Shown here: positions 16,202-22,393 of the stretch, piece after piece
Layout of the letters: each line of letters starts with the position of its first letter
Position numbering within the stretch: position 1 is the stretch's first letter
Assembly: GCA_001800315.1 (NCBI GenBank)
Contig: MGVE01000012.1
Span: 1-63,028, forward strand
Direction of reading: 5' to 3'
DNA from: Elusimicrobia bacterium RIFOXYA2_FULL_47_53
Lineage (GTDB): Bacteria > Elusimicrobiota > Endomicrobiia > Endomicrobiales > XYA2-FULL-47-53
DNA: 63,028 bases
Program-made: the position numbers and the translations under genes
The notes under the pieces: model-generated
The model's database searches: none
What the model was told of the DNA's origin: nothing
The model's input: the letters and a program-made list of their open reading frames with translations, nothing else

Positions 16202-16280
16202 TGGCGGGGATGACGGGATTCGAACCCGCGGTCTCTGCCTTGACAGGGCAGCGTGTTAAACCGGGCTACACCACATCCCC
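16202..16280 (-). tRNA. tRNA-Asp (GTC)
   Basis: Intact copy with acceptor GGGGATG/CATCCCC, discriminator G and an encoded CCA. The D-arm is GTGT-AGCCCGGTTTA-ACAC, anticodon stem CTGCC/GGCAG around CTGTCAA (anticodon GTC), and T-arm GCGGGTTCGAATCCCGT. Its GTC anticodon is a queuosine target, and queA and queH are in this window. Two broken copies follow at 16446-16531 and 16793-16851. Confidence 0.96.
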
Positions 16281-16364
16281 AACATTACATTATCTTACAG
16301 GAGCGGGTTCAAATCCTGGGATTCCCTTCCGCTCCATATTTCAAATTTGTTGTCGCTACAGGCC

Positions 16365-16445
16365 CGGGCACTCACGAACTCGTGCCCGCGCAAATTCTCG
16401 TCCAAAGTTCCCATCCGCATTCTGCGGATGACTTTGGACTTGCGC
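16365..16445. repeat. Nested hairpins adjoining a broken tRNA-Asp copy
   Basis: Two strong palindromes in tandem. The first is GGGCAC...GTGCCC (16366-16387). The second (16388-16445) has outer arms GCGCAA/TTGCGC around GTCCAAAGT, CATCCGCA-ttc-TGCGGATG and ACTTTGGAC, a stem of about 17 bp. The second ends exactly where similarity to tRNA-Asp resumes, so it replaces the T-arm and 3' end of that copy. Confidence 0.8.
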
Positions 16446-16531
16446 CCCGCGGTCTCTGCCTTGACAGGGCAGCGTGTTTCACCCTACGGGTGATGACCCG
16501 AAGGGTCAAAACCGGGCTACACCACATCCCC
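16446..16531 (-). pseudogene. tRNA-Asp partial copy B with a 30-nt double-hairpin in the D-loop
   Basis: The copy matches the intact tRNA-Asp from its first base through the anticodon arm to the variable region. It is interrupted between GGTTT and AACACG by 30 nt at 16479-16508: TCACCC-tac-GGGTGA followed directly by TGACCC-gaa-GGGTCA, two perfect 15-nt hairpins. After CCGCGGG the sequence runs into the nested palindromes and no T-arm or acceptor 3' strand follows. The 5' end also provides the last codons and stop of the GIY-YIG gene. Confidence 0.9.
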
Positions 16532-16786
16532 AACATTTAAAGATCTCTCAAGAGAAGCGAACAACAATTCTTTTCTTTGACTATGTTTTTTTAATTCAAT
16601 CTCTCGTTTTCTGGCATCAGCACTGCTCAGATATGCCTCGTAATAAACAAGTACATATGGGACATATGCTTTCGTTGAAGATACTTTACCTGCATTGTGC
16701 TCACGGTAACGCTTTCTTAAATCACTAGTATAACCAATATATGTTCTATCTAACTTCTTACTCTTTAGCAGGTATACATAATACAT
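16517..16786 (-). CDS. GIY-YIG nuclease-domain protein
   Basis: An 89-residue stand-alone GIY-YIG protein: YYVYLLKSKK, then RTYIGYTSDLRKRYREHNAG with the catalytic Arg and His, YVLVYYEAY, and RKREIELKKHSQRKELL. It is of the short UPF0213/YhbQ type. Its last residues NVGDVV and stop are encoded by the 5' end of tRNA-Asp copy B (GGGGATGTGGTGTAG). Copy A of the same tRNA fragment lies 7-65 bp before its ATG, so the gene is framed by two broken tRNA-Asp copies. No good ribosome-binding site is seen. AT-rich relative to the neighbours. Confidence 0.85.
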   Translation of the reverse strand: MYYVYLLKSKKLDRTYIGYTSDLRKRYREHNAGKVSSTKAYVPYVLVYYEAYLSSADARKREIELKKHSQRKELLFASLERSLNVGDVV

Positions 16787-16792
16787 TAGATT

Positions 16793-16851
16793 CGTGTTTC
16801 ACCCTACGGGTGATGACCCGAAGGGTCAAAACCGGGCTACACCACATCCCC
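16793..16851 (-). pseudogene. tRNA-Asp partial copy A (5' fragment) with the same 30-nt double hairpin
   Basis: The first 23 nt or so of tRNA-Asp (GGGGATGTGGTGTAGCCCGG) are followed by the same 30-nt insert at 16799-16828 and then AACACG, after which similarity stops. It lies just upstream of the GIY-YIG gene. The insert and its position are identical to copy B, so the insertion preceded the duplication. Confidence 0.88.
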
Positions 16852-17001
16852 AGAAAACCAGTTCTAAGCTATAAGTTAGCAGTTTTAAGTAATCTAATAA
16901 CTTACAACTTAAAACTTATAACTAACAGAGGCGTATTATACTACGAATGCAGATAATTGTCAAATGAGGCCTGTTTAAAATAACTTTATCAATGTCTCGT
17001 C

Positions 17002-17163
17002 ATTTCACTTTATTGGACATTTTAGCAAGAGCGCTTGGTTTCGTAGTGCTTTTGACACTTCAAGATGTTACAAGTTCATTTTGATAAACACACTCAGGGA
17101 TTGTAGCGAGGTTTAGCTATTTCACTTTTTTTGACATTTTAGCAAGAGCGCTTGGTTTCGTAG
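17002..17163. repeat. 45-bp direct repeat near tRNA-Val
   Basis: The segment beginning ATTTCACTTT and ending GGTTTCGTAG occurs at 17002-17046 and 17119-17163, differing at only a few bases within the T-run. Spacing between starts is 117 bp. The second copy forms the left part of the larger palindrome described next. The intervening DNA shows no gene. Confidence 0.8.
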
Positions 17164-17296
17164 CGAGCTGCAAAGATTTGGAGTGAAGCGAAGAAATTTT
17201 TGACAAGGTGTAGCACAGCTACATGAGTCAAAAATTTCAAAGCTGCAACCCGAATATTTGCAGCGCAGTAGAAATAAGAGTGCTCTTGCTAAAATG
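17135..17296. repeat. ~160-bp nested palindrome ending in tRNA-Val
   Basis: Outer arms CATTTTAGCAAGAGCGCT (17135-17152) and AGTGCTCTTGCTAAAATG (17279-17296) match at 17 of 18 positions as an inverted repeat. Inside are GCTGCAAA/TTTGCAGC arms, then GAAATTTTTGAC/GTCAAAAATTTC (17193-17204 and 17227-17238), then GTAGC-aca-GCTAC at the tip. The right arm ends in the discriminator and last base of tRNA-Val. It looks like a MITE-like or RNA-forming element; no coding capacity. Confidence 0.8.
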
Positions 17297-21857: not shown

Positions 21858-22393
21858 CAAAAATCTGACAAGGCATCATCTGGAATAATCCAGATGGCGG
21901 CCCGACCATCTAATCCTCCGGGAAACAGCTCCCGAACCCTTTGTTATTTGTATGTTGAGTCAGCTAAAAATATCCTTCAGACGGCAGTTTCGGTTTTCGC
22001 CCGCAGCTTAATGGCCTTGAGCCTGCAAACACCCCACCAGAGACTCAAAGCTCTGGCCTCCCTGCTTCGCTCAAAACCAAAATTTCACTCCTGCCGCAGG
22101 TTTTTCACTTGGTTCAAGTTTACAATAATTAAATATTATTCACAAGATCCTGTTAAGACCCCTAATCCTCAGATAGGGCCCAAGTCTTCACCAGACATCT
22201 AAAGTCACCCTGAACATTTCAAGTTATAAGTGAACGACGGTGTTTTGTGGATTCCGAACAGAAACTCTCCGGAAGGACGGAAAAGCAAGATTCTTCTCTC
22301 CCTTCGGGAGATCAGAACGACTGCGCCGCCTTACCGGAGTATTAGGGTTAGCCCCAATATCGGCGCGATTACGCGAAGAAAGCGCAACCGGAA
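21858..22393. other. Gene-free stretch downstream of purB
   Basis: About 540 bp without a convincing gene. It has small hairpins (CTGGA-ataa-TCCAG at 21881-21894; CTCCC-ttc-GGGAG near 22299) and a stretch around 22288-22325 similar to the intergenic element at 24780-24820. Confidence 0.5.

Follow-up and report, generated by a model that had tools for sequence, protein, structure and literature searches.

Split tRNA copies, paired 15-nt hairpins and a GIY-YIG nuclease gene: a candidate mobile palindrome family in Elusimicrobiota and Patescibacteria

The tRNA-Asp locus

The window, i.e., the whole analyzed stretch of 63,028 nt from Elusimicrobia bacterium RIFOXYA2_FULL_47_53 (contig MGVE01000012.1), carries an intact tRNA-Asp gene and, adjoining it, two broken copies (A and B) split by the same 30-nt double hairpin (DH), all of which a preliminary description of this DNA had claimed and which were found in place (Table 1). 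The gene of a GIY-YIG nuclease, absent from that description, lies exactly between copies A and B. The tRNA sense is the minus strand; on the plus strand, the only exact matches to the 30-mer TCACCCTACGGGTGATGACCCGAAGGGTCA in the window are the two DHs of Table 1, compared with 0 expected by chance. In the rest of the 2.41-Mb genome, a pattern search and the covariance model were used to look for palindromes, and no further copy with up to 3 mismatches was found; the genome as a whole has only 2 copies of the DH. In both broken genes, the insert lies between GGGGATGTGGTGTAGCCCGGTTT (ending GGTTT) and AACACG. Since the empty site of the intact tRNA-Asp reads GGTTTAACACG, the insert is precise and without target-site duplication. 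In the tRNA sense it consists of TGACCC-TTC-GGGTCA followed by TCACCC-GTA-GGGTGA, both 15-nt hairpins being perfect. The 60-bp perfect direct repeat shared by the two copies flanks the 89-aa ORF; copy B ends 6 nt past its insert and copy A extends to the T arm. The predicted promoter upstream of copy B probably once belonged to tRNA-Asp itself and now precedes the entire array.

Table 1. Features of the tRNA-Asp locus in the window.
Feature	Position	Strand	Evidence
Intact tRNA-Asp (GTC), complete copy beside the element	16202..16280	-	ARAGORN; Rfam 69.4 bits
Spacer separating copy A from the intact tRNA, with nested palindromes and an opposite-orientation tRNA-like fragment	16281..16445	-	Direct reading
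Broken tRNA-Asp copy A: 5' 23 nt, DH, 33 nt up to the T arm	16446..16531	-	Direct repeats D1, D2, D4
DH in copy A	16479..16508	-	Exact match; covariance model 41 bits
GIY-YIG nuclease ORF, 89 aa, stop codon TAG inside copy A	16517..16786	-	Pfam PF01541 E=1.1e-14; model pLDDT 87
Broken tRNA-Asp copy B: 5' 23 nt, DH, 6 nt (AACACG), then ORF start	16793..16851	-	60-bp perfect repeat of copy A
DH in copy B, same sequence as in copy A	16799..16828	-	Exact match; covariance model
Consensus promoter TTGACA-17-TATAAT, upstream of copy B	16935..16963	-	12/12 matches

Eight relatives have one intact tRNA-Asp with no broken copy adjoining, i.e., empty sites, and in two of them (G001 and G003) tRNA-Val lies just upstream of tRNA-Asp, the same as in the window. 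Most simply, therefore, the broken copies and the ORF are an insertion in the lineage of the window. An assembly artefact is unlikely because many independent assemblies show the same anatomy.

The nuclease is a bare GIY-YIG domain in which the conserved residues of the family are present (invariant: Y5, Y16, G18, R26, H30, E50, R61, and K66). By comparing its structural model with solved folds, the nearest was UPF0213 protein BH0048, then Slx1, and then I-TevI. No obvious target-binding domain was seen in the protein, and NCBIfam contains no family for it. The substrate of Slx1 is branched DNA, so an action of the nuclease on cruciform or hairpin DNA is plausible.

The double hairpin in other RNA genes

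Allowing up to 3 mismatches, a search of 100 relatives found the 30-mer again in two further families of the order, which excludes its confinement to one locus. In one of these families (L008), the DH lies inside a broken 5S rRNA copy that has an intact 5S beside it. The pattern TNACCCNNNGGGTNATNACCCNNNGGGTNA was sought in 84,980 species genomes and matched 30 stretches, mostly from Patescibacteria. In about half of them the DH splits partial RNA genes (tRNA-Glu, -Ser, -Lys, and -Arg, the 16S 5' end, and 5S), nearly always with a complete copy adjoining, and precise empty sites for the DHs were found in tRNA, 5S, and 16S sequences. For instance, the same DH as in the 5S copy of L008 is located at the 16S 5' end in L010. 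Partial copies with a DH but without a nuclease gene occur at L010, L022, L024, and L035, and a solo DH interrupts the anticodon loop of an otherwise complete tRNA-Glu at L013. The pattern matches in Anaerolineae and Duganella (L032–L034) look like local repeats of other origin and were left uncounted. A viral vector was also considered; among IMG/VR contigs the pattern matched no more than two, of which one is a local array of similar units and the other lacks a DH by a stricter test.

The sequence of the hairpins varies from locus to locus, yet their pairs covary. In 23 distinct DHs, 96% of the cells are paired, double changes occur at 10 of the 12 pairs (53 double-changed cells), and the covariation score is 0.57, compared with 0.16 after shuffling and at most 0.13 after sliding; since a fixed pattern supplied part of the DH rows, the strength of this covariation is carried by the rows found via the nuclease. 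Folding the DH as one long 13-bp hairpin gave lower values (82% paired, covariation 0.42), and no terminator was found in the region. The two DHs of L123 differ by compensatory paired changes (G-C to A-T and C-G to T-A). Moreover, the inserts in nuclease-linked tRNA fragments fold better than their shuffles (mean z -3.1; 28 of 38 below -2).

Recurrent arrangement of nuclease gene and split tRNA

Five of the 30 stretches contain, between a broken and an intact tRNA, a GIY-YIG ORF 51–61% identical to that of the window. These five and the nuclease of the window make up profile A1, with which relatives were collected; the six seeds were picked for adjoining a DH and the remaining clade members were not, so part of the association between DH and nuclease is there by construction. 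A same-strand tRNA follows 58 of the 118 related ORFs, and in 42 of the 118 the ORF end falls between -60 and +20 nt relative to the start of a same-strand tRNA, the expectation being about 0.2% per gene at an assumed tRNA density. Upstream of the ORF, 38 of the 58 show the 5' part of the same tRNA, an insert, and a few nucleotides of tRNA (often 5–6) directly before the ORF, compared with 5 of 232 in a control with tRNAs of other isotypes. The inserts are mostly hairpins or double hairpins of differing sequence, e.g., TCAGCCAGAGGCTGACCACCCTCTGGGTGG, TCTGGCTGTGCCAGATCTGGCGGAGCCAGA, and CCTGCCTGCCGGCAGGCAGG; the hosts are Patescibacteria and Elusimicrobiota. No description of this arrangement of tRNA, hairpin, and GIY-YIG ORF was found in the literature covered, mainly open-access papers on Patescibacteria/CPR.

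Insertion frequently hits a loop of the tRNA (D, anticodon, or T), and the broken left copy and the adjoining intact tRNA are often identical around the insertion point. Fragments of tRNA lie on both sides of the insert at L123, L163, L093, and L043, and a DH also occurs beyond the far side of the ORF at L163, L087, L076, L071, and in the window. The order at L123 is tRNA-Glu 1–35, DH, CATCC, ORF, intact tRNA-Glu, GGTTCT, a second DH, and tRNA-Glu 36–75. Because the 3' remnant at L123 and L093 starts exactly where the insertion occurred, these two loci suggest that the element brought the complete tRNA with it. For the window and L073, an alternative is that the intact copy was rebuilt from a duplicated 5' half. 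Inverted repeats around the intact tRNA are striking at L123, L014, and L035, but they are not enriched overall (10/58 vs 13/101 other tRNAs, at least 8 bp).

Several related arrangements were also observed. The genome of the window has a second element at L006 (G000:C15, 1210–1840), with half a tRNA-Ser, a 46-nt double hairpin of different sequence, a GIY-YIG ORF, and an intact tRNA-Ser. At L088 (1390–1900), a GIY-YIG ORF lies in an apparent RNase P RNA gene with the inverted repeats CCCCGTGAGATA and TATCTCACGGGG on its flanks. The ORFs of L089 and L170 are located in the first variable region of 16S rRNA, that of L089 in the loop of a stem made by inverted repeats. In a further group (L130, L161, L138, L142, L169, and others), a C-rich CCCCnCACC-type motif precedes the start codon by about 20–60 nt; no hairpin-split tRNA copy was found with these ORFs.

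A tree of 85 nucleases was built from a short alignment of 84 columns. Mapped on this tree, the 15+15 type of DH requires 4 changes, compared with a mean of 17.3 after shuffling, and none of 500 shuffles was as low. One group of 18 tree rows holds 17 of the 19 cases, with modest support (86). The isotype of the target is also clustered (22 changes vs 26.8 shuffled, minimum 24). Many tRNA-linked members of other nuclease clades have different or single hairpins.

Dispersed palindromes and protein genes

The DH covariance model had matches in 70 of 287 Patescibacteria genomes, often in more than 10 places, although a palindrome may be scored once per strand. Open reading frames contain many of the dispersed copies. 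By comparison with solved homologues, in-frame inserts of about 10 residues were found at the DH in MnmA (L027), glutamate dehydrogenase (L031), AlaRS (L015), and ClpC (L259); these inserts in mnmA, gdhA, alaS, and clpC were seen in Patescibacteria and not in the genome of the window. The preliminary description had raised a minimal mobile palindrome as one possibility, and this is now well supported by the dispersal of the DHs, their presence at precise sites in tRNA, 5S, and 16S sequences with empty counterparts, and their in-frame presence in protein genes. Likewise, its comparison with the palindromic elements of Rickettsia is borne out by the in-frame entry into protein genes.

Genomes with a strong nuclease match have a DH in 18 of 36 cases, compared with 52 of 251 for the others (odds ratio 3.8, p = 3e-4, kinship ignored). 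Furthermore, DH and nuclease copy numbers correlate, with 7.1 nuclease genes per genome in 14 DH-rich and 0.6 in 16 DH-free genomes (p = 4e-5, kinship ignored). Many DHs are far from any nuclease gene, and genome G123 has 14 DH matches and 0 nuclease matches. Mobilization by HUH/RAYT transposases was also considered. Y1/RAYT transposases are absent from 6 of the 11 DH-bearing Patescibacteria genomes examined, several of them DH-rich, and thus RAYT does not appear to be needed.

Proposed mechanism and alternative explanations

We hypothesize that the palindromes of two adjacent 15-nt hairpins are a mobile family and the boundary module of a GIY-YIG element, which inserts itself into RNA genes and leaves one complete copy; on balance we consider this probable. 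Comparison of loci and genomes indicates that both the element and the palindrome are likely to be mobile. The core of the element would be the stand-alone UPF0213/Slx1-like nuclease, with structured-RNA genes, mostly tRNAs, as its targets. The resident RNA gene would be split at one point, often in a D, anticodon, or T loop, its 5' part (and at some loci also its 3' part) would be left behind marked with a hairpin, and a complete copy directly downstream of the nuclease gene would allow the host to survive. At the locus of the window, tRNA-Asp would have been invaded in this way, with two broken copies as the result. The nuclease may cut the RNA gene, the hairpin, or both and thereby drive the insertion of both element and palindromes, the adjoining intact tRNA being a putative rescue copy. 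The hairpin could then be either the recognition site of the nuclease or the mark of a copy that is no longer cleavable. Selection would retain only those events that leave a complete RNA gene. It counts against this explanation that the intact copy is often identical at the site and should therefore remain a target unless it is otherwise protected. So do the DHs located far from nuclease genes, the partial copies that have a DH but no nuclease gene, and the different or single hairpins in other nuclease clades. A more far-reaching version, which we put forward tentatively and would not expect to hold in full, is that this is a new kind of mobile element: a nuclease of about 85 aa would recognize or install its cognate hairpins, break essential RNA genes at loops, and carry or regenerate a working copy (a natural cleave-and-rescue), and its hairpin ends would spread alone as in-frame palindromes.

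A more specific form of the boundary-module explanation, overlapping with it, is homing with rescue. The nuclease would cleave the tRNA loop, the composite would be copied by double-strand-break repair with the tRNA halves as homology arms, and the hairpin would do no more than block re-cleavage of the displaced copy. It would account for the way in which target isotype tracks the nuclease tree and for the fragments flanking the insert on both sides at four loci, and I-TevI is among the fold matches. However, the protein is a bare catalytic domain with no obvious target-binding domain, and the same site sequence is often kept in the intact copy; in this narrow form we regard homing as possible but rather doubtful. 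The GIY-YIG homing endonucleases of the I-TevI type have the fold in common with the present nucleases, and a site-specific spread is presumed for both. They differ in that here there is no intron and no obvious target-binding domain, and a complete copy of the host gene adjoins the insertion in place of splicing.

The palindromes could also be an independent mobile family like REP or RPE, piling up in broken tRNAs only as harmless sites and unrelated to the GIY-YIG elements responsible for the breakage. The dispersed DHs with no nuclease nearby, their in-frame positions in protein genes, and the solo DH in the otherwise complete tRNA-Glu of L013 are in line with this, as are the other nuclease-linked tRNA copies, whose hairpins resemble other palindrome families. 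On the other hand, a hairpin sits at a single point in most displaced 5' fragments, and 5–6 nt of tRNA and then the ORF often come after it, the 15+15 type follows one nuclease clade, and the copy numbers of DH and nuclease correlate across genomes, which makes an independent origin unlikely. We also considered that a transcript of the 5' tRNA part, the hairpins, and the 6 nt guides the GIY-YIG protein, in a layout analogous to IscB/TnpB elements. The conserved hairpins directly 5' of the ORF, the target-identical sequence on either side of them, and the strong covariation would suit such a guide, but the adjoining intact tRNA would be a permanent self-target, the DHs dispersed in coding genes have no guide function, and we know of no precedent for the use of a guide RNA by a lone GIY-YIG domain; RNA guidance is thus very improbable. 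Least credible of all is that the hairpin acts in a functional tRNA, either like an intron or in processing. The position of the inserts near tRNA loops might recall this, but most of the tRNA is missing from the broken copies, the intact copy is adjacent, and there is no terminator-like site in the region. The processing signal that the preliminary description had named as its other possibility is unsupported.

Comparison with known systems

Rickettsia palindromic elements (RPE) and DHs are both dispersed short palindromes that occur in frame in protein genes, including essential ones. They differ in that the DH has just 30 nt and two adjacent hairpins, is hosted by Patescibacteria and Elusimicrobiota, occurs also in tRNA, 5S, and 16S sequences, and is linked to a nuclease gene. 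Features of RPE have been described together with the REPtron, in which a RAYT tyrosine transposase is flanked by REPs (PMC3733652). REPtrons and the present elements both have palindromes that flank the gene of a mobilizing enzyme (putatively so for the GIY-YIG nuclease) and that are also dispersed, sometimes inside genes. The linked enzyme here, however, is a GIY-YIG nuclease, an HUH/Y1 transposase was not seen next to DHs, and neither end of the DH sequences in alignment A2 bears the GTAG or CGTC tag of REPs. By analogy, the palindrome appears to work like RPE, and the palindrome with its enzyme like a REPtron, with a different enzyme, tag, and host range.

The preliminary description had also compared the insert with double-hairpin elements of fungal mitochondria, which holds for the form and not beyond it. 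The mitochondrial double-hairpin or repetitive hairpin-forming elements likewise consist of two adjacent hairpins and are dispersed and variable in sequence, but they are mitochondrial, mostly intergenic, and not reported there with an associated nuclease (PMC2800124). GC-rich hairpins of 30 nt are too short for descent to be judged. In the rRNA genes of CPR bacteria, GIY-YIG-encoding insertions of unclear origin have been reported that are neither group I nor group II introns (PMC11270868). Patescibacteria as hosts, an RNA gene as the target, and a GIY-YIG ORF are common to both cases; that study is confined to rRNA, and its main text mentions no tRNA, hairpin, or palindrome. These insertions may be of the same kind as the present elements, which may account for such puzzling non-intron GIY-YIG insertions.

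In essential RNA genes, the elements could act as a natural form of cleave-and-rescue. To our knowledge, the movement of short palindromes such as RPE is unexplained, since RAYT accounts for REPs only. One palindrome family now has a candidate enzyme, associated with it at the level of a clade, at defined sites and with intact empty copies alongside, so that the question of palindrome mobility becomes testable. The elements also distort annotation, through tRNA pseudogenes and through inserted peptides in conserved proteins, e.g., HPSGDHPKGD and SAKGGSASGG.

Additional features of the window

Nested palindromes, e.g., GTCCAAAG..CTTTGGAC around CATCCGC..GCGGATG, and also GGGCAC..GTGCCC, occur in the spacer that separates copy A from the intact tRNA-Asp. 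The tRNA-like fragment in it (GGAGCGG..GGTTCAAATCC..CCGCTCC) lies at about 16300–16336 on the plus strand. No Rfam introns were found in the window at gathering scores. At 16894–16923 there is a 30-nt AT-rich repeat, AACTTACAACTTAAAACTTATAACT, with more than 10 copies in the genome. An imperfect inverted repeat of about 160 nt (17135–17296) adjoins tRNA-Val and has relatives elsewhere in the genome and in G003. Finally, a match to the nhaA-I riboswitch was observed at 21892–21939.
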